Part shown: one piece after another, positions 13,619-36,673 of the stretch | Layout of the letters: each line of letters begins with the position of its first letter | Numbering within the stretch: the first letter of the stretch is position 1 | Assembly: GCF_001571225.1 (NCBI RefSeq) | Contig: NZ_BCTJ01000002.1 | Coordinates: forward strand, 124,001-188,000 | Length of the DNA: 64,000 bases | From: Hydrogenophaga palleronii NBRC 102513 | GTDB lineage: Bacteria; Pseudomonadota; Gammaproteobacteria; Burkholderiales; Burkholderiaceae_C | Reading direction: 5' to 3' | Position numbers and translations under genes: made by a program | The notes under the pieces: generated by a model | Seen by the model: the letters and a program-made list of their open reading frames with translations, nothing else | Told to the model about the DNA's origin: nothing | Database searches by the model: none

Positions 13619-13663
13619 CTCATCGGATCGGACGATTTCCCACGGCGTTTGGATTTTTATCAT
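13619..13663 (+). promoter_or_regulatory. Putative LuxR-type activator site A with -10
   Basis: CTCATC-GGATCG-GACGAT (13619-13636) is a degenerate 18-bp dyad; TATCAT at 13658-13663 serves as -10, 21 bp downstream. The same dyad and spacing recur at 15032, 26280 and 36629. The dyad centre would be about -42.5 from the start of transcription, and it lies upstream of the binding-protein gene at 13772. Confidence 0.5.
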
Positions 13664-13771
13664 CGATTCGGCTATTGGCGTTGCAACGCTTCACAAGCAG
13701 TGCTTGTGTCATGACACGTGCCCCCGAGGACGCTGGTGACGGAGCTACCTCTCAACCAAAAAGGAGACAAC

Positions 13772-14929
13772 ATGAAACGGAAATTTGGCCAGTTCGCTGC
13801 GCTTGCGTTGCTGTGCGCGGGCGCGTGTACCGGGGTGAGCGCGCAGCAGGGCGTGAGCGACGCGGAAATTGTTCTCGGCGACATCCTGCCGCTGACCGGC
13901 CCGCCGGCGCTGTTGGGCGTGGCCCACAACCTGGGCGTGAAGGCAGCGGTTGCCGAAGCGAATGCCGCTGGTGGCATCAACGGGCGCAAGCTGCGGCTGA
14001 TCTCCGAAGACGACGGCTATGTGCCTTCGCGCACGATCCAAGGTGTGCGCAAGCTGATCAACAGCGACAAGGTTTTTGCCCTGACATCGGTCTCCGGCAC
14101 CGCGCAGGCGCAGGCTGCCATGCCGCTGATCCAGCAGACTGGCCTGCCGGCCATGGCACCCATCACCACCTACGAGGGCCTCTACAAGCCGGCCATCAAG
14201 AACGTGTTCGCCGTCGGCTACGACATGTCCAATGCCGTGGAGGAGCTGGTGGCCCGCATGGCCGACCGCTACCCCGGCAAGACGTGGGCGCTGATCTCGC
14301 AGGACGACGACTATGGCGAGAACGTACGCGAAGGCTTTGATCGCGCGGTCAAGGCGAAGAAGCTGCAGGTGGTCTCGACGCAGATCTACAAGAAGGGCCA
14401 GACCGATTTCTCGTCGGAGATCTTGAAGGTGAAGCAGGCGGGTGCAGAGGTGCTGATAGCCGGCGGCGTGCTCGGCGAGAACGTCACCATGGTGAAGGAG
14501 CTGGAACGCATCAACCACAAGATTCCCGTCGGCGTCACCTACGTGTCGCGCGTGCCCGCCAGCGCCAAGATGATGGGCGCGGCGGCCGAGAACGTCTACA
14601 CGGTCGACTACGTGTACCTGGAAAGCTCGCCGCAAGGCAAAGCCTTCACCGAAAAGATCGGCAAATACCTGAGCCCCGAAGAGATGGCCAAGGTGAACCG
14701 CTACACCTACACCGGCTACGCCGCCACGCGCGCGCTGTTCGACGCCATCGGGCGTTGCGGCAAGGCGCTGACCTGGGATTGCACCAACGCCGAACTGGCC
14801 AAGGTGAGCAACCTGGAGACCGGCGCGATGACCCCGATCGGCTTTACCGCCACCAACCACCTGGCCGCGCCCAAGCTGTTCCTGCTCAAGGCAGACCCCG
14901 CCGCCGCGACCTACAAGTCGGTGGAGTAG
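13772..14929 (+). CDS. Liv-type ABC substrate-binding protein (2 of 6)
   Basis: A 385-residue periplasmic receptor with a signal peptide ending near GVSA-QQG. The N-terminal lobe has DAEIVLGDILPLTGPPALLG and INGRKLRLISEDDGYVPSRT; the second lobe contains KKGQTDFSSEILKVKQAGAE. ATG 13772 has AAGGAG upstream. It is most like the receptor at 9701 and stands just before the second Liv permease operon, separated from it by a terminator and a second activator-type site, so it can be expressed alone and in excess, as usual for receptors. Confidence 0.9.
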   Translation: MKRKFGQFAALALLCAGACTGVSAQQGVSDAEIVLGDILPLTGPPALLGVAHNLGVKAAVAEANAAGGINGRKLRLISEDDGYVPSRTIQGVRKLINSDKVFALTSVSGTAQAQAAMPLIQQTGLPAMAPITTYEGLYKPAIKNVFAVGYDMSNAVEELVARMADRYPGKTWALISQDDDYGENVREGFDRAVKAKKLQVVSTQIYKKGQTDFSSEILKVKQAGAEVLIAGGVLGENVTMVKELERINHKIPVGVTYVSRVPASAKMMGAAAENVYTVDYVYLESSPQGKAFTEKIGKYLSPEEMAKVNRYTYTGYAATRALFDAIGRCGKALTWDCTNAELAKVSNLETGAMTPIGFTATNHLAAPKLFLLKADPAAATYKSVE

Positions 14930-14974
14930 TTCTCTCCCATGCGGCGGGGCAGTGCCCCGCTGCGTGGGTTTCAC

Positions 14975-15007
14975 AGAGCCGCACGCTTTCGCGTCGGCTC
15001 TTTTTTT
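14975..15007 (+). terminator. Rho-independent terminator after the binding-protein gene
   Basis: AGAGCCG (14975-14981) pairs perfectly with CGGCTCT (14995-15001), with inner ACGC/GCGT pairing and a TTTC loop, followed directly by a run of seven T. A second GC-rich hairpin (GCGGGGC/GCCCCGC) lies just upstream. It separates the binding-protein gene from the permease operon. Confidence 0.85.
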
Positions 15008-15031
15008 GGCCGCGGCATGCGGTGGCATGGA

Positions 15032-15076
15032 TTCGTCGGATAGGACGATATTCCAGAGCAACCCGCTTCCTACCAT
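15032..15076 (+). promoter_or_regulatory. Putative LuxR-type activator site B with -10
   Basis: TTCGTC-GGATAG-GACGAT (15032-15049) with -10-like TACCAT at 15071-15076, 21 bp downstream. The dyad and its downstream flank (GACGATATTCCAGAGCA) match site D at 36641 in 16 of 17 positions. It lies 103 bp before the second LivH-like permease gene. Confidence 0.55.
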
Positions 15077-15151
15077 CAGTGCAACTTCCCGCGCACAGCC
15101 TGCGTGGGCCCATAAAAGATGCCCGGCGTGCACTGCACCGCAGGGCCGCGG

Positions 15152-16039
15152 ATGGAGACCGGGTTGCTGATCCTTCAAATCATCGTGGCGGGCATCGCGC
15201 AAGGCTGTGTATACGGCCTCATTGCGCTGGGGTTCGTCCTCATCTACAAGGCGACGGAGACCGTCAACTTCGCCCAGGGCGACCTGATGATGCTGGGCGC
15301 CTTCGCGGGCCTGGCAGGCATGGGTTTTTTCGGTTGGCCGTTCTGGCTGGCAGCGCTCGCGGCCATCGTGGCGATGGCGCTGCTGGGTCTGTTGCTGGAG
15401 CGCGCCATCATCCGCCCGGTTCTGGGCCAGCCGCAGTTCTCCATCGTGATGCTGACCTTTGGTGTGGGCTACGTCATTCGCGGGGCCGTCACCATGGTGC
15501 CCGGCATTGGCACCGACACCCATTCGCTGCCCGTACCGTACAAGGGCGCGACGCTGTCGTTGGGCCCAGTCACGCTGGGTGCCGAGCAGCTGGTGGTCAT
15601 CAGTGCCACGGCGTTGCTGTGCGGCGTGTTGTGGTTGTTGTTCCGCTTCACGCGGGTGGGCATCGCCATGCAGGCGTCCTCCCAGAACCAGCTGGCGGCC
15701 TACTACATGGGAATTCCGGTGCAACGACTCAACGGACTGGTGTGGGCCCTGGCCGCAGCCGTTGCCACCGTGGCGGGCCTGCTGCTGGCGCCCGTGACCT
15801 TCGTGCACGCGAACATGGGTTTCATCGGCCTGAAAGCGTTTCCCGCTGCCATCGTCGGCGGCTTCGGCAGCCTGCCGGGCGCCATCGTCGGCGGTCTGAT
15901 CATCGGCGTGGTGGAGTCCTTGTCAGGCTTCTACCTGCCCGAGGGATTCAAGGACGTCATCCCCTACGCCGTGGTGTTGCTGATGCTCGCCATCAAGCCC
16001 ACCGGGCTCTTCGGCGATCGCGCCCGCAAGAAAGTCTGA
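15152..16039 (+). CDS. Branched-chain amino acid-type ABC permease (LivH-like, system 2)
   Basis: A 295-residue membrane permease. AGIAQGCVYGLIALGFVLIY and NFAQGDLMMLGAF are the LivH N-terminal motifs, and AFPAAIVGGFGSLPGAIVGG is the conserved C-terminal loop. ATG 15152 (METGLLILQ) is chosen because the membrane segment begins at once; a GTG/ATG further up would add a non-conserved leader. First gene of the second transport operon, under activator site B. Confidence 0.92.
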   Translation: METGLLILQIIVAGIAQGCVYGLIALGFVLIYKATETVNFAQGDLMMLGAFAGLAGMGFFGWPFWLAALAAIVAMALLGLLLERAIIRPVLGQPQFSIVMLTFGVGYVIRGAVTMVPGIGTDTHSLPVPYKGATLSLGPVTLGAEQLVVISATALLCGVLWLLFRFTRVGIAMQASSQNQLAAYYMGIPVQRLNGLVWALAAAVATVAGLLLAPVTFVHANMGFIGLKAFPAAIVGGFGSLPGAIVGGLIIGVVESLSGFYLPEGFKDVIPYAVVLLMLAIKPTGLFGDRARKKV

Positions 16040-16043
16040 CCCG

Positions 16044-17120
16044 ATGCGCTTCATCTTCAAAACCCGTTACGACCAGGACATGAATCTGGCCCGGCATGGC
16101 GGGCATCTCTTCTGGTATTCGCTGCTGATGCTCGTCTTGCTGGCAGCGCCCTGGGCGCTGCCGGAATACTGGCTGGCGCAACTGACCTTCGTGTTCATCT
16201 ATGCCATCGTGGCCGTCGGCCTGATGCTGCTGGCCGGCTTCACCGGGCAGTTCTCCATCGGCCACGCAGCCTTCATGGGTGTGGGCGCCTACACGGAGGC
16301 CTACCTCGCCGCGCGCGGCTGGCCGTTGCCGCTCAGCCTGGTCTGCTCGATGTTTCTCTCGGCGGCGGTGGGTGTGGTGGTGGGGTTGCCTGCATTGCGC
16401 GTCAAGGGCATGTACCTCGGCATCGCAACGCTGTCATTCGGCTTCATCGTCGAGGAGGTTCTGGCGCGTTGGGAAAGCGTGACTGGTGGCAATGCGGGCA
16501 AGTCGGTGGTCTCGGCGCAAGTCTTCGGCAAGCCGCTGGCGTCGACGGAGAGCCTCTACTTCCTGTGTCTGTTGTGCGTGGTGCTCAGCACCCTGCTGGT
16601 GTTGAACCTGTTGCGTGCGCCGGCCGGACGTGCCTTCGTCGCGATCCGCGATTCTGAGATCTCCGCGCAAAGCATGGGTATCCAGCTGGCCCGCTACAAG
16701 TTCCTGGCGTTCGCCATCTCGGCGGCGCTGGCCGGTCTGGGCGGCGCGCTCTACGCGCACAAGATGCAGTACATCTCGCCCGATCAGTTCAGTCTGGTGC
16801 AGTCCATTGACCTGGTGTTGATGGTGGTCATCGGCGGTCTGGGTTCGATCCATGGCGCGTTCTTCGGCGCCATCTTTCTGATCGGCATGCCGCAACTGAT
16901 CTCCTTGGCCAAGGACTATTTGCCGACGGCCGTCGCGCAGGCCGCAGGGCTGCAGAACGTGGTCTACGGTGCGGTGCTGATCGCCTTCGTGATGCTGGAG
17001 CCCATGGGACTCTACGGCCGTTGGCTCAAGCTGCGCACCTGGCTGGAGCTCTATCCCTTCTACCGGCGCGGCATGTTCCGGCGCCAGAAGTCCTATGCCA
17101 AGTCGGAGCGCTTGAAATGA
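16044..17120 (+). CDS. Branched-chain amino acid-type ABC permease (LivM-like, system 2)
   Basis: A 358-residue multi-pass permease with the LivM hallmarks LLAGFTGQFSIGHAAFMGVG and FVAIRDSEISAQSMGIQLAR. It starts 4 bp after the LivH stop. The C-terminus ends in a basic tail (RRGMFRRQKSYAKSERLK) longer than in LivM of system 1. A 118-bp gap with a GC-rich inverted repeat separates it from the fused ATPase gene. Confidence 0.92.
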   Translation: MRFIFKTRYDQDMNLARHGGHLFWYSLLMLVLLAAPWALPEYWLAQLTFVFIYAIVAVGLMLLAGFTGQFSIGHAAFMGVGAYTEAYLAARGWPLPLSLVCSMFLSAAVGVVVGLPALRVKGMYLGIATLSFGFIVEEVLARWESVTGGNAGKSVVSAQVFGKPLASTESLYFLCLLCVVLSTLLVLNLLRAPAGRAFVAIRDSEISAQSMGIQLARYKFLAFAISAALAGLGGALYAHKMQYISPDQFSLVQSIDLVLMVVIGGLGSIHGAFFGAIFLIGMPQLISLAKDYLPTAVAQAAGLQNVVYGAVLIAFVMLEPMGLYGRWLKLRTWLELYPFYRRGMFRRQKSYAKSERLK

Positions 17121-17124
17121 TGGA

Positions 17125-17164
17125 ACACTCCCGCGTCGCTTCGCGCCGCCCCTTCAGGGGGGCA
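17125..17164. repeat. GC-rich inverted-repeat intergenic element
   Basis: The segment after the LivM stop contains GCGTCGCTTCGCGC and CGCCCCTTCAGGGGGG, each with a short self-complementary stem. It resembles the small GC-rich intergenic elements common in Comamonadaceae, but copy number cannot be judged from this window. Confidence 0.35.
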
Positions 17165-17238
17165 ATGCCTGTGGCCTGTCAAAGCCAGTTCCGCAGCGTT
17201 CGTGAATGGACATCCGTTCACGCCAAGGTTGCCATCGT

Positions 17239-18849
17239 ATGAGCCAGCCTTTGCTTTCTGCACGCAACCTCAGTGTCCGCTTTGGCGGGGTGCTGGCCGT
17301 CAACGACGTGAGCTTCGACGTCAAACAAGGCGAAGTGTTCACCCTCATCGGCCCCAACGGAGCGGGCAAGACGACGGTGTTCAACCTGATCAGCCGCATC
17401 TACACGCCCACGAGCGGAACGATCGAATTCGATGGACAGCCCCTGGACGTCGTGGCGCCCTACGGCGTGGCCAACCTTGGCATTGCGCGCACGTTCCAGA
17501 ACATCGAGCTGTTCGAGCACGCGACGGTGCTGCAGAACCTGCTGATCGGTCGCCACATCCGGCGCAACACCAGCGTGTGGAGCGAGATGCTGTTCTTGCC
17601 AAAGGTGCGCGAAGCCGAACGCCAGACACGCCGCAAGGTGGAAGAAATCATCGACCTGCTTGAGCTGCACCACTACCGTGATGCGCACGTAGCGGGGTTG
17701 CCCTATGGCGTGCGCAAGGTGGTGGAGCTGGGCCGCGCGCTGTGCACCGAGCCGCGACTGCTGCTGCTTGACGAGCCATCGTCCGGTCTGAATGTGGAAG
17801 AGACCGGCGACATGGCTTTCTGGATCGAAGACATCCGGCGCGACCTGGGCATCACCATACTGATGGTCGAGCACGATATGGGGCTGGTCTCCAAGGTGTC
17901 CGATCGCGTGTTGGCCATGAATCAGGGCGCGGTGCTGGCGCTTGGTGATCCGGCAGCGGTCCAGGCCGACCCGGGCGTGATCGAGGCCTATCTCGGCACC
18001 ATGGACAACGTGGCGTCGCTGCGCCGCACGGCGGAGGTGAAGGCATGCGCGACCGCCCAGCCTGTGGCGCCAGCCCGCCTGCACTCCAGTCTGCAGCTCA
18101 ACAACGTGGAGAGCGCGTATGGCCCGATCAAGGCCATCCGAGGCATCAGCCTGCAGGTGCAGCCGGGGCAGATCGCCACCGTGCTTGGCTCGAATGGCGC
18201 GGGCAAGTCGACCATTCTCAAGACCATCTCGGGCATCATCGACCCGGCCAAAGGCAGCATCGTTTTCCAGGGTGAAGACATCACCGCGCGCGACCCGGCA
18301 CTCATCGTGCAGCGTGGCCTGGTGCATGTGCCCGAGGGGCGTGAGGTGTTCTCGCTGCTCTCGGTGCACGACAACCTGATGATGGGGGCCTACACGCGGA
18401 CCGACCGGGACGCGGTGGCGCGCGACCTGGAGGTGGTCTACAACTACTTCCCCATTCTGAGAGAGCGTGCGCGCCAGGACGCCGGCCTGCTGTCGGGCGG
18501 GCAGCAGCAGATGCTGGCCATCTCGCGCGCCATCCTCGCAGGGCCCGCGATGATCCTGCTGGACGAACCCAGCCTTGGCCTGTCGCCGCGCCTGACCAAG
18601 GAAATTTTCGAGATCGTGGTGCGCATCAACCGCGAACTCGGCACCACCATTCTGCTGGTGGAGCAGAACGCCAACATGGCGCTCAACGTGGCCGACCACG
18701 GTTACGTGCTGGAAAACGGTCGCATCGTCATGGACGACAGCTGCGATCGGTTGCGTGAGAAGGACGACATCAAGGAGTTCTATCTCGGCATGAAGGAAGC
18801 CGGCGCGCGGGGCGACCACCGCTGGAAGAAAAAGAAAACCTGGAGATGA
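17239..18849 (+). CDS. Fused LivG-LivF ABC ATPase (system 2)
   Basis: A 536-residue protein with two complete ABC ATPase domains. The N-terminal half is LivG-like: Walker A GPNGAGKTT near residue 40, a modified signature LPYGVRKVVELGRAL near 155 and LLLLDEPSSGLN. The C-terminal half, after a short linker around residues 270-290, is LivF-like: GSNGAGKS near 318, VPEGREVFSLLSV, LSGGQQQ near 417 and ILLDEPSLGLSP. In system 1 the same units are separate genes. ATG 17239 (MSQPLLSARNL) has AAGG upstream; an in-frame ATG at 17206 is the alternative. Confidence 0.9.
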   Translation: MSQPLLSARNLSVRFGGVLAVNDVSFDVKQGEVFTLIGPNGAGKTTVFNLISRIYTPTSGTIEFDGQPLDVVAPYGVANLGIARTFQNIELFEHATVLQNLLIGRHIRRNTSVWSEMLFLPKVREAERQTRRKVEEIIDLLELHHYRDAHVAGLPYGVRKVVELGRALCTEPRLLLLDEPSSGLNVEETGDMAFWIEDIRRDLGITILMVEHDMGLVSKVSDRVLAMNQGAVLALGDPAAVQADPGVIEAYLGTMDNVASLRRTAEVKACATAQPVAPARLHSSLQLNNVESAYGPIKAIRGISLQVQPGQIATVLGSNGAGKSTILKTISGIIDPAKGSIVFQGEDITARDPALIVQRGLVHVPEGREVFSLLSVHDNLMMGAYTRTDRDAVARDLEVVYNYFPILRERARQDAGLLSGGQQQMLAISRAILAGPAMILLDEPSLGLSPRLTKEIFEIVVRINRELGTTILLVEQNANMALNVADHGYVLENGRIVMDDSCDRLREKDDIKEFYLGMKEAGARGDHRWKKKKTWR

Positions 18850-18857
18850 GGCGGCAC

Positions 18858-20711
18858 ATGGCACTCTGGAACCTCGATCATCTCAAGCCTCGCGAAGATA
18901 TCGTGACGCCGGGCGACACCATCTCGCGCATCTTCTGGGCCGGCGTTGCTGCGCGCGGCGAGGCCGTCATGATGCGGCAGAAGGAGTTCGGCATCTGGCG
19001 CAGCTGGAGCTGGAGCGAGGTGGGTGGCATCGTCCGCGACCTGTCCATGGGGCTGGCGTCGCTGGGCCTGAAACCCGGCGACTGTGTGTCCATCCTGTCG
19101 AACACCCGTGTGGAGTGGGTCTGGCTGGATCTCGCGGTGCTGAGCGCCGCCGGTGTGTCCAGCGGCATCTACCCAACCGACGCCTCGCCGCAACTGGAGT
19201 TTCTCTGCGAGAACTCCGACACCGTTGTGCTGGTGGTCGAAGATGAAGAACAACTGGACAAGGCGCTCGAAGTGCGTGCGCAGTTGCCGAAGCTGCGCAA
19301 AATTGTGCTGATCGATCCCAAGGGCCTGGCCGAGTTCAGCGACCCGATGGTGATCACGCTCGACACGCTGCGCGAGCAGGGCGCTGCGCACGACCGCGCC
19401 CACCAGGGCGAATTCGAGCGCTTGCGTGAGGTGCGCGGCCCGGACGACCTGGCGATCCTGATCTACACCTCGGGCACCACCGGAAAGCCCAAGGGTGCGA
19501 TGCATTCCAACCGTGGCCTGGTGGTGGTGGTGCATGGCCAGAACACCACGCTGCCGCAGGACGATCGCGACGAACGCATGTGCTTCCTGCCGCTGTGCCA
19601 CGTGGCCGAACGCGTGGTGGGACTCTATGCGTCCATCTACACCGGTACGCGGATGAACTTCGTCGAGAACCCCGACACCGTGCCCGAGAACGTGCGCGAG
19701 ATCGCGCCCACGGTGTTCGGCGGTGTGCCGCGCATGTGGGAGAAGTTCTATTCCGCCGTCACCATTTCGGTGAAGGAGGCGGGTACCGTGCAGCAGGCGC
19801 TCTACCGCTGGGCCATTGCGCAGGGCCATGCCGTGGCCGACCGCGTTCTGGCTGGTGAGACCGTGAACCCGTGGATGAAGTTCAAGTACTACCTGGCCGG
19901 TGTGGCATCACTCAACAACGTGCGCCGGTTCATTGGCATTCATCGTTGCCGCTGCATGGCCACGGGCGCGGCGCCGATCTCACCGGACCTGATCCGCTGG
20001 TACCTGGCCTTGGGCATTCCGATGCTCGAAGCGTGGGGCCAGACCGAGTCGTGCGGCATCTCCACCGCCATGCCACCGGGCCGCATCCGGCTGGGCACCA
20101 TCGGGCCGAAGAGCCCATACAACGAGGTGCGCATCGATCCTGAGACGGGCGAGCTGCTGGTGCGCGGGCCCAACGTGTTCATGGGCTACCTGAAGCAGCC
20201 CGAAAAGACAGCAGAGACCATCGACGCCGACGGCTGGTTGCACACCGGCGATGTGGGCACCGAGGACGCCGAGGGCTACTTCCGCATCACCGACCGCATG
20301 AAGGACATCATCATCACCGCGGGGGGCAAGAACGTCACGCCCAGCGAATGGGAGAACGAACTCAAGTTCAGTCCGTACGTGACGGATGCGGTGGTGATCG
20401 GCGACCGCCGCGCCTACCTGACGGCCATCGTGATGATCGAGCAGGAGAACGTCGAGAAGTACGCGCAAGACCAGAACATCCTTTTCTCCAACTACGCCAG
20501 CCTGACCCGTGCGCCTGAGATCCGCGCGCTGATCCAGGAGGAGATCGACAAGATCAACCGCAAGTTCGCCCGCGTCGAGCAGATCAAGAAGTTTTTCCTG
20601 CTGGAGACGCAGCTCTCGGCCGAAGACGACGAACTCACTCCGACCATGAAGCTCAAGCGCAGCTTCGTCCAGAAGAAGTACGCACCGGAAATCGAAGAAA
20701 TGTACCGCTGA
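18858..20711 (+). CDS. AMP-dependent acyl-CoA synthetase (long-chain type, copy 2)
   Basis: About 617 residues of the same ANL-ligase group as the protein at 5860, with which it shares overall layout and many motifs: the KEFGIW segment, YTSGTTGKPKGA P-loop near residue 205, EAWGQTES near 395, and DIIITAGGKNVTPSEWEN near 480. It should activate a carboxylic acid imported by system 2. ATG 18858 is 6 bp after GAGG; the ATG at 18846, overlapping the ATPase stop, would add MRRH. Both ligases sit within a Liv operon, so pairing of importer and ligase is conserved between the two systems. Confidence 0.9.
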   Translation: MALWNLDHLKPREDIVTPGDTISRIFWAGVAARGEAVMMRQKEFGIWRSWSWSEVGGIVRDLSMGLASLGLKPGDCVSILSNTRVEWVWLDLAVLSAAGVSSGIYPTDASPQLEFLCENSDTVVLVVEDEEQLDKALEVRAQLPKLRKIVLIDPKGLAEFSDPMVITLDTLREQGAAHDRAHQGEFERLREVRGPDDLAILIYTSGTTGKPKGAMHSNRGLVVVVHGQNTTLPQDDRDERMCFLPLCHVAERVVGLYASIYTGTRMNFVENPDTVPENVREIAPTVFGGVPRMWEKFYSAVTISVKEAGTVQQALYRWAIAQGHAVADRVLAGETVNPWMKFKYYLAGVASLNNVRRFIGIHRCRCMATGAAPISPDLIRWYLALGIPMLEAWGQTESCGISTAMPPGRIRLGTIGPKSPYNEVRIDPETGELLVRGPNVFMGYLKQPEKTAETIDADGWLHTGDVGTEDAEGYFRITDRMKDIIITAGGKNVTPSEWENELKFSPYVTDAVVIGDRRAYLTAIVMIEQENVEKYAQDQNILFSNYASLTRAPEIRALIQEEIDKINRKFARVEQIKKFFLLETQLSAEDDELTPTMKLKRSFVQKKYAPEIEEMYR

Positions 20712-26324: not shown

Positions 26325-26358
26325 CGTGGCTGTGATGGTTCAACACGAGGAAGCCAGC

Positions 26359-27546
26359 ATGAGCAAACGTTTTTCGAATTGCACAGCGGCGGCGGTGCTG
26401 ACGGCCGTACTCGGCCTGGCCAGCGCCGGGTCGATTGCGCAGACGCAAGGCGTCAGCGCCAACGAGGTGGTCATCGGCACCATCAGCGATCTGTCCGGCC
26501 CCATCGCCGGTTACGGAAAAGACCTGCGCAACGGCATGCTGCTGCGGGTCGACGAGATCAACGCCCAGGGTGGCGTCCACGGACGCAAACTCAAGCTGCT
26601 GGTGGAAGACAACGGGTACGACCCCAAGCGCAGCGTGCTGGCCGCGCAGAAACTCGTGAACCAGGACAAGGTGTTTGCCGTCATCGGCACCTTCGGCACG
26701 GTGCACACGCTCGCGGCCATGCAGGTGCAGGCGCCCAAGGGGGTCTACAACCTGTTTCCCATGTCGCTCTCGCGCGAAATGTACGAGCCAGTCGATCACC
26801 TCAAGTTCGCGTTGTTGTCGCCGTACTTCGATCAACTTGAGGCGGTCATTCCGCCGCTCTACAAAAGCACGCAGGCGCGCAAGGCCTGCGCGATCTACCA
26901 GGACGATGATTTTGGCTATGAGGTGGTGCAGGGCGCCGAGGCGGGCCTGCGCAAGGCGGGCGCTCAACTGGCGGAGAAAACCAGCTTCAAGCGGGGCGCG
27001 ACCGATTTCTCTTCACAGGTGGCGCGACTCAAGGCAGCCGACTGTGACTTCGTGGTGACGGCCACGCTGATCCGCGAGACCGTCAGCGTCATCACCGAGG
27101 CGCGAAAGATCGGCTTCTCGCCCACCTTCGTGTCGCCCTCGTCGGCCTACACCGACCTCATTCCCAAGTTGGGAGGCAAGGCCATGGACGGCTTCTATGC
27201 GGCCATGACGGCGGTGCATCCGTATCCGGACGACGCGTCGGAGGCCGTGCGCAACTGGACCGCGCGGTACCAGGCCAAGTTCACGGACCTGCCCACGGTG
27301 TTCTCGACCTACGGCTACACGATGATCGACCTGTTCGCCAAGGGTCTGCAGAAGAACGGGCCGCAGCTCACGGGCGACAGCTATGGCCGCGCGCTGGAGT
27401 CCATAGGTGAGCTGCCCAGCGACATCTTCGGCAATCCGCCGCTGCTGTTCACACCCACCCAGCACCTGGGTTCCAACAAGGCACGGCTGTCACAGTTGCA
27501 GAACGGCCGCTGGAAGATCGTGCTCGATTACGACCAGTTCAAGTAG
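26359..27546 (+). CDS. Liv-type ABC substrate-binding protein (5 of 6)
   Basis: A 395-residue periplasmic receptor with a signal peptide ending SIA-QTQ. It carries VIGTISDLSGPIAGYGKDLR, VEDNGYDPKRSVLAAQKLVN and YQDDDFGYE. It is very similar to the receptor at 40914, sharing GYGKDLRNGM, VEDNGYDPKR, AQKLVNQDKVF and the end (R-W-K-(I/V)-VLDYDQ). ATG 26359 has GAGGAA upstream. It starts a unit with the SCP2-type thiolase and is preceded by activator site C. Confidence 0.9.
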   Translation: MSKRFSNCTAAAVLTAVLGLASAGSIAQTQGVSANEVVIGTISDLSGPIAGYGKDLRNGMLLRVDEINAQGGVHGRKLKLLVEDNGYDPKRSVLAAQKLVNQDKVFAVIGTFGTVHTLAAMQVQAPKGVYNLFPMSLSREMYEPVDHLKFALLSPYFDQLEAVIPPLYKSTQARKACAIYQDDDFGYEVVQGAEAGLRKAGAQLAEKTSFKRGATDFSSQVARLKAADCDFVVTATLIRETVSVITEARKIGFSPTFVSPSSAYTDLIPKLGGKAMDGFYAAMTAVHPYPDDASEAVRNWTARYQAKFTDLPTVFSTYGYTMIDLFAKGLQKNGPQLTGDSYGRALESIGELPSDIFGNPPLLFTPTQHLGSNKARLSQLQNGRWKIVLDYDQFK

Positions 27547-27588
27547 ATGTCCCATGACCTCCCGTTGCTGTGTGCGGAGACACCTCCG

Positions 27589-28773
27589 ATGAGCCGAAAA
27601 GTGTATGTCGCCGGTGTGGGTATGGTGCCCTTCACCAAACCCGGCGCGAGCGAAACCTATCCCCTGCTCGGTGCGGCGGTCATCAAGGCCGCGTTGGCCG
27701 ACGCGGGGGTGGACTACCAGGTGGTCGATCAGGTGTATGCGGGCTTCGTCTACGGCGACTCCTGCTGCGGCCAGGCGGCGGCGTACCACGTGGGCTTGAC
27801 GGGCATTCCTATCGTCAACGTCAACAACAACTGCGCCACCGGGTCCACCGCGCTATGGCTCGGCCGTCAGGCCGTGGCCAGTGGCGAGGCCGAGTGCGTG
27901 CTGGTGGTGGGCTTCGAGCAGATGCAGCGCGGCGCCATCACCGCCCACTTCACCGACCGACCCGACCCTTCGCAGCGCCTGCTCGACGTGATGGAGGACA
28001 CGCAGGGCCGCGACGAACGCGCACCTATCGCGGCGCAGCTCTTCGGTGGTGCGGGCCGCATGCACATGCAGCTCTATGGCACGCGTGCCGACACCTTCGC
28101 GCGCATCGCGGTGAAGGCGCGGCGCCACGCGGCGAACAACCCCAACGCCATCTTTCGAGATCCACTCACGCTGGACGAGGTGCTGGCTTCGCCGAGCGTG
28201 TTCGATCCGTTGACCCGCCTGCAGTGCTGCCCGCCCAGCTGTGGCGGCGCGGCGGCGATCCTGTGTTCTGAGGCCTTCGCGAAGAAGCACTGGATCAGCC
28301 GGCTGGTGTACATCGCCGGCCAGGCGCTGGTGACCGATGGAAACAGCAGCTTCGATGAAAACGACATGCGAAAGCTGGTGGGTTTCGACATGACGCGACG
28401 TGCCGCGCAGCGCGTGTACGAACAGTCCGGCATCGGTCCGGCCGACGTGCCCGTGGTCGAACTGCACGACTGCTTCACCAGCAACGAGCTCATCACCTAC
28501 GAAGCCCTCGGCCTGGTGGGGGATGGCGGAGCCGAGCAATTCATTCTGGACGGCGACAACACCTACGGTGGTCGCGTGGTCACCAACCCCTCCGGTGGTC
28601 TGCTCTCCAAGGGGCATCCGCTGGGCGCGACCGGCCTGGCGCAGTGCGCCGAGCTGGTCTGGCAGCTGCGCGGACAGGCCGGCGCCAGGCAGGTGGATGG
28701 CGCGAAGGTCGCCCTGCAGCACAACCTGGGCCTGGGCGGGGCGTGTGTCGTTACGATGTATGTCAAGGTGTAG
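27589..28773 (+). CDS. SCP2/lipid-transfer-type thiolase
   Basis: A 394-residue thiolase-superfamily enzyme of the SCPx/lipid-transfer group, expected to cleave 3-ketoacyl-CoA with branched or bulky chains or to catalyse a related aldol-type step. The nucleophilic Cys is in NNNCATGSTAL near residue 82, the His in LLSKGHPLGATG near 342 and the second Cys in LGLGGACVVTMY near 385. ATG 27589 (MSRKVYVAGVGM) with GCGGAGA upstream is preferred over the in-frame ATG at 27547. Members of this group occur in steroid side-chain and branched-acid degradation. Confidence 0.87.
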   Translation: MSRKVYVAGVGMVPFTKPGASETYPLLGAAVIKAALADAGVDYQVVDQVYAGFVYGDSCCGQAAAYHVGLTGIPIVNVNNNCATGSTALWLGRQAVASGEAECVLVVGFEQMQRGAITAHFTDRPDPSQRLLDVMEDTQGRDERAPIAAQLFGGAGRMHMQLYGTRADTFARIAVKARRHAANNPNAIFRDPLTLDEVLASPSVFDPLTRLQCCPPSCGGAAAILCSEAFAKKHWISRLVYIAGQALVTDGNSSFDENDMRKLVGFDMTRRAAQRVYEQSGIGPADVPVVELHDCFTSNELITYEALGLVGDGGAEQFILDGDNTYGGRVVTNPSGGLLSKGHPLGATGLAQCAELVWQLRGQAGARQVDGAKVALQHNLGLGGACVVTMYVKV

Positions 28774-28887
28774 ACCACCCGTCGCCTTGGGTGTCACACG
28801 CGTGAAATGGAGGGCGAAACTTGAGGGCCGACAAGGCCCGCTCCTCGGTGTCTTGGCACAAGGCATCGCAGCCATGAAGCAAGAGAC

Positions 28888-31647
28888 ATGACGACCGAAG
28901 GCCCGCGACTGAAACTGGTGAGCACGGCCACGCAGGCGGTGCACGAGGGTGCGCGCGCCTCACCGCTGGCGGCCAAGCTCAACCCGCCAATGCCCACGGC
29001 TTTCGAGATTGTGCGCGCCGAGGTGGGGGAGAAGATCTTCAACGCCGGCTCGGCCCGGCTGGTGTTGTTGCGCGCACCCGCCGGCTTCGGCAAGACCACG
29101 GTCATGCTGCAGGTGCGCCACCGTTTCGAAGAAGCCGGCCTGCCGACCGCCTGGCTCACGCTTGACCGCGCGGACAACGACGTGGGTCGCTTCCTCACCG
29201 TGCTGGCCGCTGCGCTTGAACCGCTGGTGCCCGGCCTGGCGCGCGCCCGCGCTGCGCCCGCGGGCAATCTGGAGGAGTTGGCCTTCTCGGTGATCGACCA
29301 CGTGGCGGCGCACCCGGCACCGTTCGCGCTCTTCCTCGACGACTTCGAGGCGCTGCAGAACCCGGTGGCGCTGGGCATGGTGAATGAACTCATTGACCAG
29401 TTGCCGCGCGGTGCCCAGCTCATCGTGGGGTCTCGCGGCGCACCCGAACTGAGCCTGGGCCGTCTGCGCGCGCGCGGCCGCTTGCTGGAGGTCGAGCCCG
29501 CGCAGCTGCGCTTCTCGGTCGGTGAGGCCGAGGGCTTCCTGCGCGAGCGCCGCAGACTGGTGCTGGAGACGGAGGACATCGTGCGCCTGCACCGCAGCAC
29601 CGAGGGCTGGGCGGCGGCGTTGTGGCTGGCCTCGGTGTCGCTGGAACACCGCGACGACCCCGGCCAGTTCATCGCAGGCTTCACCGGCTCCAACGCCGCC
29701 GTGGTTGACTACCTGGTGGAAGACGTGCTGGCCCGCCAGACCGAGGACGTGCGTGGTTTTCTGTTGCGCTCCAGCGTGCTCACCGTGCTCAACGCCTCGC
29801 TGTGCAACCTGGTCTGCCGCCGCGAGGACAGCGCGGCCATGCTGCGTTCGCTGGAGCAGGCGCACCTGTTTCTGATTCCGCTGCAGCCCGAGGGCAGCGG
29901 CTACCGCTATCACGGCATGTTCGCCGAGTTCCTGCGAGCCCTGCTTCTGCGGCAATACCCGGACGAAGTGCCCGGCCTGCACCGCTCGGCGGCGCGCTGG
30001 TTCCTCGGCGAGGGCCGGCCGGTGCCGGCCATCGAACACGCCCTGGCCGCGGGGGAGGTCAGCACCGCACTGCCGTTGCTGAACGAGCACGCGCAAGCCC
30101 TGCTCGACCAGGGCCGCATGCGACTGCTCTCGCGCTGGCTAGATCCGCTGCTGGAATGCGGCTTGCTCGACGAACACCCCATGCTGCAGGTGGTGCACGC
30201 CTGGGCCGTGTGTTTCGCGCGCGGTCCATTGGCGGCCGCGCCACTGCTGGAACGGCTGGAGCAGCGCGCCGACCCGAGCGAGGAGGTAAAGGCACACCGC
30301 CTTGCGATGAAGCCGCTCTTGATGGTGCTCACCGACCGCACCGACGAAGCCACCGAGCTGGCCTCGGCGCTGCTCGGCGCGCTGCCCACCCACGTGAGCT
30401 TTGTTCGTGGTTTCCTGGAAATCATTCTGGCCAACCTTGCGATGATCGCGGGTCACTACCACGAGGCCTTGCGCTATGCCGACGCGGCGCGCAGCCACCA
30501 ACCCGAGCACCGCAGCAGCTTCAACTTCACGCTCTCCGAGGCCGCCGAAGCGGCGGTGGATCTCACGCAGGGCCGGCTGCGCAAGGCGCTGGCGCGCCTG
30601 CGCCTGGCGGTCAACGCCGGCACGCACGACGGCGGACGCACCACGAACGGCAACGCCATGGCCGGCGTGCTGTTTGCCGAGGCGCTGTTCGAGGCCGACC
30701 AGCTCGAACAGGCCGAGCGCCTGCTCGCGGTCTACATCCCGCTGATTCGCCACGTGGGCATTCCGGATCAGTTGATCCTGGCGCATGTGGTGATGGCGCG
30801 CATCGTGCAGGACCAGGGCGACGCCGATCACGCGCTGCAGCTGCTGGCCGAGCTGGAGCACCTGGGCCACCGCGATGGACTGCCGCGCGTGGTGGCCGGC
30901 GCGCGGCTGGAGCGCGTGCGCATGTTGGTGACCGAAGGCCGACTGGGCCGCGCACGCGCCGAGATCGACCACTGCGGCGACAAGGCGCTGTGGGCACGCG
31001 TGAGCCGCTCCTCGCTGCGCGCCAACGAGGTCGAGACGCTTGCGCTGACGCACGCGCGCTGGGCCGTGCAGGCGGGGCACGCGGCCGAGGTGGTGGCCGA
31101 GCTGCGCGCCGAGTTGGACGTGGCCGAGCGCGCCCAACGCGAGCGCCGCGCCTTGACGTTGCGCCTGGTGCTGGCACAGGCCCAGTACAAGCTGGGCGAG
31201 CGCAATCGCGCCATGCGTTTGCTGGCCAAGGCCGTGTGCTTCGGCGCGGCTGAAGGCTATGTGCGCGCCTTTCTGGTGGAGGGGCCGCTGCTGCTGGTGA
31301 TGTTGCAGGACCTGCGCAGTGGGCCAACCGACCTGCTCGATGCCGACGGCGGCGCGCCCATCGCCTTCCTCGACCGCCTGCTGCGCGCCCCGGTGGCTCC
31401 GCTGCCTCAGCCCACTGTGGCCGGGGCGGTGCTACCCCCGGCCAGCGCCATCGATGCGCTGACGAAAAAGGAACTGCAGGTGCTGCGCCTGGTGGCGGAA
31501 GGCTTTTCCAACGACCAGATCGGTGAGCGCATGTTCGTGGCCGAAACCACCATCCGAACCCACCTGCGAAACATCAACGTGAAACTCGACACCCGCAACC
31601 GCATGGAGGCCGTGCAGGTCGCCCGGCGCGCGGGCTGGCTCGCCTGA
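28888..31647 (+). CDS. MalT-like LuxR-family (LAL) transcriptional activator
   Basis: A 919-residue STAND-type regulator. The N-terminal NTPase has Walker A RAPAGFGKTT near residues 60-69 and a Walker B-like LFLDDFEAL near 150, followed by a winged-helix/TPR-like all-helical sensor region (about 350-800). The C-terminal LuxR helix-turn-helix (LTKKELQVLRLVAEGFSNDQ, then IGERMFVAETTIRTHLRNIN; about residues 858-917) is intact. LAL proteins bind an inducer and ATP, oligomerise and activate promoters. It lies mid-cluster and is the best local candidate for the four ATCGTC-N6-GACGAT sites. The HTH and size make the family secure; the targets are inference. Confidence 0.92.
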   Translation: MTTEGPRLKLVSTATQAVHEGARASPLAAKLNPPMPTAFEIVRAEVGEKIFNAGSARLVLLRAPAGFGKTTVMLQVRHRFEEAGLPTAWLTLDRADNDVGRFLTVLAAALEPLVPGLARARAAPAGNLEELAFSVIDHVAAHPAPFALFLDDFEALQNPVALGMVNELIDQLPRGAQLIVGSRGAPELSLGRLRARGRLLEVEPAQLRFSVGEAEGFLRERRRLVLETEDIVRLHRSTEGWAAALWLASVSLEHRDDPGQFIAGFTGSNAAVVDYLVEDVLARQTEDVRGFLLRSSVLTVLNASLCNLVCRREDSAAMLRSLEQAHLFLIPLQPEGSGYRYHGMFAEFLRALLLRQYPDEVPGLHRSAARWFLGEGRPVPAIEHALAAGEVSTALPLLNEHAQALLDQGRMRLLSRWLDPLLECGLLDEHPMLQVVHAWAVCFARGPLAAAPLLERLEQRADPSEEVKAHRLAMKPLLMVLTDRTDEATELASALLGALPTHVSFVRGFLEIILANLAMIAGHYHEALRYADAARSHQPEHRSSFNFTLSEAAEAAVDLTQGRLRKALARLRLAVNAGTHDGGRTTNGNAMAGVLFAEALFEADQLEQAERLLAVYIPLIRHVGIPDQLILAHVVMARIVQDQGDADHALQLLAELEHLGHRDGLPRVVAGARLERVRMLVTEGRLGRARAEIDHCGDKALWARVSRSSLRANEVETLALTHARWAVQAGHAAEVVAELRAELDVAERAQRERRALTLRLVLAQAQYKLGERNRAMRLLAKAVCFGAAEGYVRAFLVEGPLLLVMLQDLRSGPTDLLDADGGAPIAFLDRLLRAPVAPLPQPTVAGAVLPPASAIDALTKKELQVLRLVAEGFSNDQIGERMFVAETTIRTHLRNINVKLDTRNRMEAVQVARRAGWLA

Positions 31648-31677
31648 ACGGCGCACCCCACCCCAGAGGTAGATCCC

Positions 31678-32814
31678 ATGATGCAACGCGAGATTTTCCA
31701 GCCCGAGCACGAACTCTTTCGCGAGACGGTGCGCCGTTTCCTGCAGGCCGAGGTGGCGCCAAACATTGAACGCTGGGAGGCGCGTGGCGGCTTCGAGCAC
31801 GGCTTCTTTGAGGCCGCCGGCGTGGCGGGGCTGCTGTGCCCCACCGTGCCAGAGAGCCTGGGAGGGGCGGGCGCCGACCTGCTGTACTCCACGGTGTTGC
31901 TGGAGGAGGCTGCGCCCTACAGCAACTTCGGCCTCTCGCTCACCATGCATTCTGAGATCGTCACCAACTACCTGCTGCACTTTGCGGGAGAGCACCTGCA
32001 GCAGCGCTGGCTGCCGCGCATGGTGACAGGCGAGGCCATTGGCGCGCTGGCCATGACCGAGCCCGGTGCGGGCTCCGACGTGAAGGCAGTGCGCACGACG
32101 GCGGTGCGCGACGGTGACGTCTATGTGCTCAACGGCTCCAAGACCTTTATCTCCAATGCCACCGTGTGCGATTTGGTGATCGTGGTCGCCAAGACCAACC
32201 CCGCTGCCGGCGCCAAAGGCGTGAGCCTGCTGGTGGTGGACACCACGCTGCCCGGAGTGCGAAAGGGCCAGCCATTGAAGAAGATGGGGCTGAAGTCGCA
32301 GGACACGGGTGAGCTGTTCTTCGAGAACGTGCGTGTTCCGGCCGACAGCCTGCTGGGCGAGGAAAACCAGGGCTTCTTCTACCTCATGCGCGAGCTGCCC
32401 TGGGAGCGGCTGCAGATTGGCATCTCGGCCATCGCTGCCGCGGAAGCGGCCTACCGTTGGACGCTGGACTACGTGCGCGAGCGCAAAGCGTTTGGCCAGG
32501 CCGTGGCCGACTTCCAGCACACCCGCTTCGTGCTGGCCGAACTCAAGACCGAGATTCAGATCGGCCGCACTTTCGTGGACCACTGTCTGTCGCTGCTGTT
32601 GCGAGGCACCCTGGATGCGCAGGCCGCCTCCATGGCCAAGTACTGGACGAGTGACCTGCAGGGCAAGGTGGTGGACGCCTGCGTGCAGCTGCACGGCGGC
32701 TACGGCTTCATGGCCGAGTACCCGATCGCGCGCGCCTATGTGGACGCGCGGGCACAGCGCATCTACGGCGGCACCAACGAGATCATGAAAGAACTGATCG
32801 CCCGGGATCTCTAG
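31678..32814 (+). CDS. Acyl-CoA dehydrogenase (second)
   Basis: A 378-residue FAD-dependent acyl-CoA dehydrogenase of normal length. ALAMTEPGAGSDVKAVRT (about residues 124-141) is the flavin/substrate signature, followed by NGSKTFISNA. The C-terminal RIYGGTNEIMKELIARDL holds the likely catalytic Glu. ATG 31678 has AGAGG upstream, 30 bp after the LAL gene. Its 3' end overlaps the convergent LysR gene by 32 bp. Confidence 0.93.
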   Translation: MMQREIFQPEHELFRETVRRFLQAEVAPNIERWEARGGFEHGFFEAAGVAGLLCPTVPESLGGAGADLLYSTVLLEEAAPYSNFGLSLTMHSEIVTNYLLHFAGEHLQQRWLPRMVTGEAIGALAMTEPGAGSDVKAVRTTAVRDGDVYVLNGSKTFISNATVCDLVIVVAKTNPAAGAKGVSLLVVDTTLPGVRKGQPLKKMGLKSQDTGELFFENVRVPADSLLGEENQGFFYLMRELPWERLQIGISAIAAAEAAYRWTLDYVRERKAFGQAVADFQHTRFVLAELKTEIQIGRTFVDHCLSLLLRGTLDAQAASMAKYWTSDLQGKVVDACVQLHGGYGFMAEYPIARAYVDARAQRIYGGTNEIMKELIARDL

Positions 32815-33727
32815 CCTGGTGGGTCAGCGGTGGGGGGGGGATGCTGCGGATGAGCTCCCGCAGCCACACGAACAGCGGCAGGCGGTGGGTGCGCTCGTGC
32901 CAGACCATCACAGTCTCGATGTCGGCCAGGGCGAAAGGCACGGGCCAGATGTCGAGTGGCAGGTGCGCGGAAAACCGCTCGCAGATCCAGGTCGGCAATG
33001 TGGCGACGTGGTGTGAGCTCGCGACGATGTAGGGAATCAACAGCAACGACGACACGCGAACGGAGCGGATGCGGTCGTGCCCGATGGCCTTGAGTTCATG
33101 GATCAAGGTTTGCTCCAGCGTCGAGCGCGGCGAGAAGGGCGAGCCGAACACAACGTGGGGGCGCTCGATGTAGGTGTCCAGCGTCAGGTCTGGGCAGCTC
33201 CCGCGCGCCGTGATGCACGACATCGGCTGGGAGTACAGAGAGATGCGACGCAGATCGGGGTGGACTTCTGGAAAGTAGCCGATCGCTATGTCGCACTCGC
33301 CCTCGCTGAGCCATTCCTTCACATGGTCTGGGTCGGGCGCGCGCACATTGAGCACCAAGCCCGGTGCCATGTCGGACAGCAGGTGCGACAGGGTTGGCAG
33401 GTAGTTGAGTCCGATGTTGTCGGCGGCCGCCAGCGTGACAGTGGCCTTCGTTTCCAAGAGGTCCAGCGGGCCTTCGTTGGCAAAGATCTCATCCATCAGC
33501 TCTATGCCGTAGCGGACTTTCAGTGCGATGGACTGGGCGCGTTCCGTCAGGTTGAATTCGTTGCCGGAACGCACCAGCAGCGGATCGCCGGTGAGCTCGC
33601 GCAGGCGTGACAGGGCGTTGCTCATGCCGGACTGGCTCATCTCCAGCCGTTCCGCAGCCCGCGTGACAGAACGGGTGGCCAACAAGGCGTTCAGACAGAC
33701 CAGCAGGTTGATGTTGCTGCGTTTCAC
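32783..33727 (-). CDS. LysR-family transcriptional regulator
   Basis: A 314-residue LysR regulator. The winged helix-turn-helix (LLATRSVTRAAERLEMSQSG followed by MSNALSRLREL) occupies residues about 15-50; the rest is the periplasmic-binding-like effector domain. The layout resembles the NahR/LinR/DntR group, which often senses aromatic or cyclic compounds. It is divergent from the cupin gene at 33839 with 111 bp between, the classic LysR arrangement, so it probably controls the cupin-Bug-hydrolase genes rather than the acyl-CoA genes. Confidence 0.92.
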   Translation of the reverse strand: MKRSNINLLVCLNALLATRSVTRAAERLEMSQSGMSNALSRLRELTGDPLLVRSGNEFNLTERAQSIALKVRYGIELMDEIFANEGPLDLLETKATVTLAAADNIGLNYLPTLSHLLSDMAPGLVLNVRAPDPDHVKEWLSEGECDIAIGYFPEVHPDLRRISLYSQPMSCITARGSCPDLTLDTYIERPHVVFGSPFSPRSTLEQTLIHELKAIGHDRIRSVRVSSLLLIPYIVASSHHVATLPTWICERFSAHLPLDIWPVPFALADIETVMVWHERTHRLPLFVWLRELIRSIPPPPLTHQARDPGRSVLS

Positions 33728-35400: not shown

Positions 35401-35509
35401 GGCGGGCCAACCGACATGAACGCCCCTGAAGACATGACCCGGTGGTTGCCCCACGGTGACGCTGCAGCCAGGGGTTCCCCACAAACAGTTGGAGCGCCTC
35501 AAAAAAACT

Positions 35510-35735
35510 TGATCCGCACCGGCACGCGAGAGCAAGTCAGCACAGGCTGCGACCATAAGCGGCTTTTCGTGGGCGGCGAGGAGCCCTGGGTGTGACGACC
35601 GAGATCACGCTGCGCGCTTTTTCCGTTGCCTGAGGCTGCTTGCTCGTTCGCGAGCCTGGAGGCGTCTGTGCGCACCTCCATCGAGGTGATCCAGATGGGG
35701 ATGTCGATTGCGCGCGTGGAACGGATCGGCGCATA
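35510..35735 (+). pseudogene. Decayed FAD-linked oxidase (D-lactate dehydrogenase/GlcD-like) fragment
   Basis: Pieces of a GlcD/DLD-type oxidase can be read in order across frames: ARESKSAQAA, then KRLFVGGEEPW, then TTEITLRAF, then LPEAACSFASLEASVRTSIE and VIQMGMSIARVE. In intact homologues these correspond to RARKSAAGYD, RLFVGSEGTLG, ITEVTLRL, LPEA and VIQMG-x-P-x-ARIEL. At least two frame changes and a stop interrupt it, and both ends are lost. This explains most of the 394-bp gap between the Bug gene and the hydrolase. Confidence 0.6.
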
Positions 35736-35794
35736 TGGTCAACCCTCACGTTCAACTAGCGGACCAACTTTCGCCTGGATTGAGAGGAGACGGC

Positions 35795-36526
35795 ATGTTG
35801 AATTGGCAAGGTGACACCCAGGTGGTCGGGCAAGTGCGTTGCCGCCGTTTCGTGCCCAGGTCACAGGCGGATGGCGCCGCCACCGGGGCAGTGTTCGAGC
35901 CGCTGGTGGCTGCCGCTCCATCCCGCATCGCGCTCATTCAGCACGGCGGTAGTTCCAACAAGGAAGGCGCTGACGTGTGGGACGTGGCGCACGCGCTCAC
36001 CAGGCGAGAGGGCATCCGGCTGGTTGCCCTGGACGGGCCTGTGCACGGTGCGCGCCTGGCCCGCGGCGAGAAACTTGAACCGCTGGACGTGCGTGCGCGG
36101 TTCTTCGAGAAGTGGGAACACGAGCCGAACCACGTCGAAGTGCATGTCGATGCCTGGAGAGGCCTGATCGACGAGCTGGTCGACGCGTGGCACCCTGAAC
36201 AGGTGTCCTGGGTCGGGTTGTCCATGGGGACGGCCTATGGCCTGCCGCTGCTGGCGCGGGAGACGGCACGCATCCACAGCGCGGTGATCGGCATGTGGGG
36301 CACGAGCTTCGTCAACTCGGCCCGCTTGCGGGTCGATGCGAAGGCGGTGCGCGCGCGGGTCCTGTTCCAGCAAAAGTGGCACGACGAGCTGTTCAGTCGC
36401 GACGGGCAGTTGGAGCTGTTCGACGCGCTGGGCACCGATGATCGGCGCCTTCATGTGTATCCGGGGGGGCACACCCGCATGGGCGAGGAACAGCTAGCGG
36501 ACCTGGTGCGCTTTGTCGTGAACTAG
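35795..36526 (+). CDS. Alpha/beta-hydrolase-fold protein
   Basis: A 243-residue hydrolase. The nucleophile elbow GLSMGTAYG carries the Ser, IALIQHGGSSN is the oxyanion-loop region near residue 45, and a C-terminal PGGHTRMG gives the His. ATG 35795 is well placed after GAGGAGA; the frame continues upstream into the oxidase remnant. An ester, lactone or C-C hydrolase role in the LysR-linked module is likely, with unknown substrate. Confidence 0.82.
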   Translation: MLNWQGDTQVVGQVRCRRFVPRSQADGAATGAVFEPLVAAAPSRIALIQHGGSSNKEGADVWDVAHALTRREGIRLVALDGPVHGARLARGEKLEPLDVRARFFEKWEHEPNHVEVHVDAWRGLIDELVDAWHPEQVSWVGLSMGTAYGLPLLARETARIHSAVIGMWGTSFVNSARLRVDAKAVRARVLFQQKWHDELFSRDGQLELFDALGTDDRRLHVYPGGHTRMGEEQLADLVRFVVN

Positions 36527-36567
36527 GGCCTGTTCACGCAATCTTTGAAACCCATTCCCTTCCGTCT

Positions 36568-36599
36568 GCGTTGCGGGCCATGCGCATGGCCCGCAACGC
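36568..36599. repeat. Perfect 32-bp palindrome
   Basis: GCGTTGCGGGCCATGC is followed directly by its exact reverse complement, with no spacer. It lies 42 bp after the hydrolase stop and 30 bp before activator site D. As RNA it would be a long GC-rich hairpin; no T-run follows, so Rho-independent termination is doubtful. Confidence 0.7.
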
Positions 36600-36628
36600 G
36601 GCACGAAAAACAGGTGTGACAGGCTCCA

Positions 36629-36673
36629 ATCGTCCAAGGCGACGATATTCCGGAGCACCCCCGCTGGCAGAGT
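36629..36673 (+). promoter_or_regulatory. Putative LuxR-type activator site D
   Basis: A perfect dyad ATCGTC-CAAGGC-GACGAT (36629-36646) with a weak -10-like CAGAGT at 36668-36673, 21 bp downstream. The downstream flank ATATTCCGGAGCA matches site B. The hydratase ATG at 36681 is so close that the transcript would be nearly leaderless. Confidence 0.5.

Follow-up and report, generated by a model that had tools for sequence, protein, structure and literature searches.

A palindrome at a fixed distance from −10-like hexamers as the predicted operator of a MalT-like LAL regulator in Hydrogenophaga palleronii

Introduction

MalT boxes are short and asymmetric and are commonly arranged as direct repeats, and the lux box at class II promoters is centred at −42.5. 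Here we describe a 64,000-nucleotide stretch of the Hydrogenophaga palleronii NBRC 102513 genome (contig NZ_BCTJ01000002.1, positions 124,001 to 188,000; the window), in which four dyads of the form ATCGTC-N6-GACGAT, with an assumed centre like that of the lux box, accompany genes for Liv-type transport and acyl-CoA metabolism and a gene for a MalT-like LAL regulator at 28888-31647. The four dyads are very probably operators of this LAL, a candidate class II-type activator of a Liv transporter with its ligase, of receptors, of a beta-oxidation operon and of its own gene. The dyad stands at a fixed distance from a −10-like hexamer, is conserved, occurs in its strict form only in the window in this genome, and recurs in many further bacteria beside LAL genes that encode the same recognition helix.

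In MalT, inducer-driven multimerisation leads to cooperative binding of MalT boxes and to polymerase recruitment (PMC4381067). Like E. coli MalT, the window LAL has a NOD ATPase, a MalT-type TPR region and a C-terminal LuxR helix-turn-helix (HTH), and the window half-site, (S)GACGA, is similar to the MalT box GGA[TG]GA (box as given in PMC9628970). Unlike MalT, it scores below the MalT equivalog cut-off and its neighbours belong to acyl-CoA rather than maltodextrin metabolism; the predicted operator, unlike MalT boxes, consists of a single 18-bp inverted repeat in a fixed position. The dyad is similar in length to that of LuxR class II promoters (20 bp for LuxR; PMC9628970), and the HTH family is the same, but the half-site differs, no acyl-homoserine-lactone domain is among the Pfam matches of the window LAL, and the start here is assumed. 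The Streptomyces proteins SCO6993, SCO0877 and SCO7173 are also LALs, and SCO6993 footprints hold palindromes; unlike for the window dyads, however, its authors could derive no consensus for SCO6993 (PMC9628970), and in the text available we saw no comparable fixed operator geometry for Streptomyces LALs.

Our full-text searches of an open-access collection turned up no account of this regulon, and a term search of the main text of PMC6449761, on the regulation of aromatic metabolism in Betaproteobacteria, returned 0 occurrences of LuxR and MalT. The circuit looks real and little-known.

Results

Four dyads and their hexamers

Re-reading the sequence gave the same coordinates that the initial annotation had listed for the four dyads, with the same division into two perfect and two degenerate ones, and the 21 bp that it had placed between each dyad and a −10-like hexamer is correct for all four sites:

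13619-13636, + strand: site 1, dyad CTCATCGGATCGGACGAT with 2 mismatches, upstream of a Liv-type receptor gene
13658-13663, + strand: hexamer of site 1, −10-like TATCAT, 21 bp past the dyad
15032-15049, + strand: site 2, dyad TTCGTCGGATAGGACGAT with 1 mismatch, upstream of LivH
15071-15076, + strand: hexamer of site 2, −10-like TACCAT, 21 bp past the dyad
26280-26297, + strand: site 3, perfect dyad ATCGTCTGGTACGACGAT, with a receptor as the first gene downstream
26319-26324, + strand: hexamer of site 3, −10-like TAGTGT, 21 bp past the dyad
36629-36646, + strand: site 4, perfect dyad ATCGTCCAAGGCGACGAT, upstream of an enoyl-CoA hydratase
36668-36673, + strand: hexamer of site 4, −10-like CAGAGT, 21 bp past the dyad, with ATG 36681 7 nt further

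The dyad centre of −42.5 presumes +1 at 12 bp after the hexamer start, and this start position is an assumption. The −10 hexamers of the four promoters are weak, and by eye no −35 is evident. These promoter features bear on a rival reading, in which binding of the dyads by the LAL serves to repress, or merely to modulate, the promoters. The sign of regulation is not given by sequence alone, and the Streptomyces LAL SCO6993 is a repressor (PMC9628970). Against repression, the dyad stops just short of where a −35 usually lies, at one spacing, and leaves the −10 uncovered, the hexamers are of the weak kind just described, and MalT itself recruits polymerase (PMC4381067). We consider repression or mere modulation improbable.

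Seven dyads with at most two mismatches occur in the window, and only sites 1–4 lie outside genes. Our gene caller is crude, and site 3 fell inside an over-extended open reading frame (ORF) at 26134-27546; the count takes it as intergenic after correction of the receptor's likely ATG to 26359. A further 1-mismatch dyad at 10241 is coding, inside a receptor gene, with GAGGGT 21 bp on. With up to three mismatches there are 65 dyads in the window against 23.3 expected from shuffles, mostly coding. Such loose counting was dropped as proof: coding sequence is rich in such pairs, and this bias makes the count uninformative.

The LAL regulator

28888-31647, + strand: LAL / MalT-like STAND regulator, 919 aa, Walker A APAGFGKT (domain scan)

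Pfam domains and the best solved-structure sequence match (8bob MalT, over residues 28-431) agree with the initial annotation that a MalT-like LuxR regulator is encoded amid the sites. TPR_MalT covers residues 472-810 (97.5 bits, cut-off 45), and GerE, the LuxR-type HTH, covers residues 857-912 (64.6 bits, cut-off 23.5) and includes the recognition helix VAETTIRTHLRNIN at residues 884-897. The Walker A sequence is invariant in 12 of 12 aligned LALs. The protein thus has the N-terminal Walker A domain, the TPR_MalT region and the C-terminal LuxR HTH of LAL / MalT-like STAND regulators. With 372.1 bits, the protein falls short of the MalT equivalog cut-off of 537, and by this score MalT itself was ruled out.

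Rarity of the sites and their recovery by a matrix from relatives

The perfect dyad has two copies in the 4.84-Mb genome, both in the window. Three exact copies of TCGTCN6GACGATN22ANNNT exist in the genome, all in the window (sites 2, 3 and 4). At one mismatch there are 22 matches, six in the window and 16 outside; 14 of those outside lie within predicted ORFs, and no ORF begins within 300 bp of the other two. The initial annotation had named equally good sites at random genome places as telling against its proposal; none appeared in either the strict or the 1-mismatch scan of the genome.

A 47-position matrix was built from 17 sites of relatives only, leaving out the window and its nearest relative, L131 (92% LAL identity). 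The sources lie near close LAL relatives (G196, G122 and G105, 71–76%; Variovorax ginsengisoli L152, 74%; Bradyrhizobium L129 and L130, 59%), and at one of the 17 sites (L129 8455) the hexamer ending in T is missing. The top four window places under this matrix are sites 2, 3, 4 and 1 (39.0, 33.7, 26.6 and 23.6), followed by a place scoring 10.3; site 1 scores 23.2 on the + strand and 23.6 on the − strand. The coding dyad at 10241 is absent from the 15 best matrix matches in the window. In two 20-kb pieces of this contig that lie beyond the window, the matrix maximum is 3.6, and 20 column-shuffled matrices gave maxima of 1.5–11.3 (window 12000–42000, + strand). Reversed-pattern controls gave 0 dyads, but their composition differs; they were replaced by the composition-matched TCATCGN6CGATGA and by 20 permuted half-sites.

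Were the dyads chance or coding-bias matches, the loose window matches at three mismatches and the mostly coding 1-mismatch matches elsewhere in the genome would be in keeping with that. The relatives-only ranking contradicts it, as do the spacing peak and the permuted-dyad controls given below, and we assign this explanation a negligible probability.

Spacing in other LAL neighbourhoods

A spacing survey covered 82 dyads with at most one mismatch, on both flanks, in 18 LAL neighbourhoods other than the window. TAnnnT begins 21, 22 and 23 bp past the dyad in 20, 19 and 7 cases, respectively, and in 0–2 cases at each of the remaining spacings between 8 and 44. A fixed distance from operator to −10, a class II promoter trait, is thus present, with a peak at 21–23 bp.

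The distance differs between two LAL subfamilies. Counting only dyads with NANNNT at 21–23 bp, so that the tallies are conditional on that range, the window's subfamily (A) has a spacing of 21 in 23 of 23, and the sister subfamily (B) has 21 in 34, 22 in 34 and 23 in 3 of 71. The subfamily B count took 31 of the 37 loci in the 42–49% LAL-identity class. One G122 coding site was omitted from the subfamily count and the window's coding dyad at 10241 was kept; L152 15139 and G196 40124 were entered in reverse orientation, though their forward side also has a hexamer at 21 bp.

Co-occurrence of dyads with the LAL and its recognition helix

Across 80 named loci (all 80 in the identity-class and helix tallies, 67 in the per-locus dyad listing), dyads with hexamers are common at LAL identities of at least 42% and drop off below. 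Those with NANNNT number 5 of 5 at ≥70% identity (2 loci), 3 of 4 at 50–69% (2 loci), 74 of 81 at 42–49% (37 loci), 7 of 15 at 37–41% (18 loci) and 4 of 8 at ≤34% (21 loci). In the 42–49% class, 20 permuted dyads gave a mean of 1.05 dyads (maximum 7), with a hexamer in a mean of 0.05 (maximum 1). Loci with the window-type recognition helix have a dyad plus hexamer in 38 of 44 cases, against 3 of 36 for other helices (Fisher p 7e-13; the helix pattern was chosen after the list was seen). The helix separates the loci well: the LALs of Zhongshania L170 (38%) and Pseudomonas L199 (32%) carry an RTHLRS helix and have sites, and five LALs of 38–39% identity with RSHLRK or KSHLRR helices (L158, L163, L169, L175 and L179) have no sites.

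In a family survey of 299 genomes, 29 were LAL-positive, with a match at 38% identity or more (E ≤1.9e-162). The pattern TCGTCN6GACGAN22TANNNT, which takes spacing 21 only and finds sites 2 and 3 in the window, occurs in 17 of these 29 genomes against 18 of the 270 others (p 5e-11), and 30 of its 35 matches in LAL-positive genomes lie within ~60 kb of the LAL gene. Perfect dyads in 16 LAL genomes fall within 20, 40 and 60 kb of the LAL in 14, 19 and 23 of 53 cases; the composition-matched control does so in 0 of 38 at any of these distances. Operator and regulator therefore co-occur both across genomes and across loci. A subfamily B-like match at G134:C6:1207-1250 (TCGTCGCTACCGACGATG...TAGACT) comes from a genome in which no LAL was matched at E 1e-60; the LAL may have been missed or may fall in a contig gap, or the site may be an orphan.

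The same neighbourhoods bear on whether a different regulator of the cluster owns the dyads, their closeness to the LAL gene being incidental. The window encodes three candidates:

42125-42781: TetR
2156-2749, − strand: TetR (by eye)
32783-33727: LysR

TetR operators are likewise dyads, and all seven of the subfamily A neighbourhoods or loci that we examined (G196, G122, G105, L129, L130, L131 and L152) have a called homologue of the TetR at 42125. Yet in five subfamily B neighbourhoods (G253, G264, G177, G114 and G219) no gene is labelled as a homologue of either TetR, a result of a crude gene caller that may miss genes, while dyads are present in 5 of 5; for the LysR these five gave only a weak match in G177 (29%). 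The TetR at 2156 is adjoined by different palindromes, and the dyads track the LAL recognition helix while their spacer tracks the LAL subfamily within one genome (G122, below). We judge it very improbable that another regulator owns the dyads. The initial annotation's assignment of the four sites to the LAL is supported by the relatives-only matrix, the spacing peak and the co-occurrence with helix and genome, all of which point to this protein as the probable binder.

Two LAL subfamilies and their dyad spacers

Read toward the promoter, the subfamily A consensus is nTCGTC-GGATRC-GACGAT-A and that of subfamily B is nTCGTC-GSTTCC-GACGAT-G. Genome G122 has both LAL types, at 72% (A-type) and 46% (B-type) identity. 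Near the former, the spacer is GGATAC or GGATGC in 3 of 3 promoter-like dyads; near the latter, TTC stands at spacer positions 3–5 in 4 of 5, the fifth being CGATCC, in a tally that omits one hexamer-less dyad near each LAL. The recognition helix starts with VAETT in subfamily A and mostly with VSDST in B, and we infer that the spacer difference matches this helix difference.

Targets, gene order and a predicted leaderless start

The dyads had been annotated as preceding two receptor genes, a transport/ligase operon and a beta-oxidation operon, and our gene and domain calls agree:

13772-14929, + strand: Liv-type receptor (Peripla_BP_6), downstream of site 1 (domain scan)
15119-20711, + strand: LivH, LivM, fused LivG-LivF and AMP-forming acyl-CoA ligase, downstream of site 2 (family scans)
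26359-27546, + strand: Liv-type receptor, first gene past site 3 (domain scan)
27547-28773, + strand: thiolase with Thiolase_C_1 domain (domain scan)
31678-32814, + strand: acyl-CoA dehydrogenase, next after the LAL gene (domain scan)
36681-40873, + strand: enoyl-CoA hydratase (ATG 36681, predicted leaderless), thiolase (37504-38712) and FadJ-like two-domain protein (38771-40873), downstream of site 4 (family scans)

Downstream of site 3, the receptor, thiolase, LAL and acyl-CoA dehydrogenase genes form a row that spans 26359-32814. A dyad stands upstream of LivH in six cases (the window, L131, L152, G196, G122 and G105) and upstream of the hydratase-thiolase-FadJ genes in the same six and in Bradyrhizobium L129 and L130; several relatives' dyads fall within over-extended ORF calls, and the gene-order labels of LivG1, SnoaL_d, LivK4 and orf33839 were not used (reference proteins out of frame). 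At site 4, both arms are intact in L131 and two of the six spacer bases are changed.

The LAL gene lies downstream of a same-strand dyad in 8 of 8 gene orders, that of L129 lacking a hexamer ending in T, and this position suggests feedback. The hydratase ATG stands 7 nt past the hexamer in the window, L131, L152, G122 and G105 and 6 nt past it in the two Bradyrhizobium loci, G196 being the exception; given this distance, seen in 7 of 8 loci, the beta-oxidation transcript probably lacks a leader and begins at the ATG or beside it. By eye, hydratase N-termini are alike across these loci (PKN[ST]FR).

Bradyrhizobium L129 and L130 have thiolase-LAL and hydratase-thiolase-FadJ genes with two dyads each and a LAL identity of 59–60%, a case that suggests that the cluster has moved between classes together with its operators.

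Evidence that weighs against the assignment

Several results tell against reading the four dyads as LAL operators. Site 1 is the weakest of the four and is not conserved. Sites 1 and 3 are both missing in the nearest relative, L131, where the site 1 receptor directly follows LivM and the site 3 receptor closely follows the ligase with no dyad between; on this gene order, the two sites are local. Sites 3 and 4 have perfect arms and deviate from the GGAT spacer that marks the subfamily to which they belong. The initial annotation had held that loss of the motif from genomes keeping the LAL would count against its proposal; the motif is retained in most such cases but not in all, since 6 of the 44 right-helix loci have no promoter-like dyad in the stretch examined and 12 of the 29 LAL-positive genomes are without the strict form, which is also present in 18 of 270 genomes lacking a LAL of at least 38% identity. 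The genomes are related, so that these counts are not independent; the locus and genome sets share records (L140/G122, L143/G253 and L156/G011), and the NANNNT test of the 80-locus tallies (21–23 bp) requires only A at position 2 and T at position 6.

Other features of the cluster

No enzyme diagnostic of the substrate came out of the family scans, which gave transporter, ligase, hydratase, thiolase, dehydrogenase, CoA-transferase and SnoaL-like proteins. A carboxylic acid that is converted into its CoA thioester is the probable substrate. A subfamily B cluster in Cupriavidus necator A5-1 (L135 5450-7957) holds acyl-CoA dehydrogenases that, at E 1e-60, match only PimC and PimD (pimeloyl-CoA dehydrogenase) in NCBIfam, with scores under the cut-offs, a hint of a dicarboxylate or ring-derived substrate there.

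Small ORFs adjoin receptor genes in both transporter regions (10915-12214 and 24664-25080), that at 24664-25077 being SnoaL-like. Two palindromes around TTAGACCGACGGGACGGTCTAA, at ~2805-2832 and 4162-4199, flank a ferredoxin reductase gene next to the divergent ORF 2156-2749 (−), the TetR called by eye. They are likely, by eye, to be operators for the first Liv transporter operon, and the two parallel transporter operons would therefore have different regulators. Further along, a 4545-aa open frame at 49850-63487, with a FecR-domain gene (48626-49711) upstream, encodes a TPS secretion domain and a C-terminal DUF3739 (filamentous haemagglutinin family); by these domains, the product is a large two-partner-secreted protein.

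Discussion

In the circuit that we propose, an inducer at the TPR sensor and ATP at the NOD would cause the LAL to multimerise as MalT does. A pair of its LuxR-type HTH domains would then bind the palindrome centred near −42.5, and the bound LAL would touch RNA polymerase as a class II activator, allowing transcription to start from promoters with a weak −10 and no −35 evident by eye. The predicted targets are the Liv transporter with its ligase, the receptors and the beta-oxidation operon, whose mRNA would start at its ATG or beside it. The LAL itself would be a target through the receptor-thiolase-LAL genes, which would give positive feedback.

We lean, by a little, towards a broader proposal. 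A widespread proteobacterial clade of MalT-like STAND activators may use one rigidly placed palindrome, not MalT-type boxes, to drive acyl-CoA catabolism, partly via conserved leaderless mRNAs. Sister subfamilies would be kept apart, even within one cell, by the central bases (GGATRC versus GSTTCC) and the next base (A versus G), matching the helix change from VAETT to mostly VSDST.

If these predictions hold, little-studied MalT-like regulators of environmental proteobacteria would gain a defined operator, promoter geometry and target genes. The paired subfamilies would offer a natural system for the reading of central bases by LuxR-type HTH domains, and the operator would mark which transport and beta-oxidation genes belong together, thus providing a route to the substrate.

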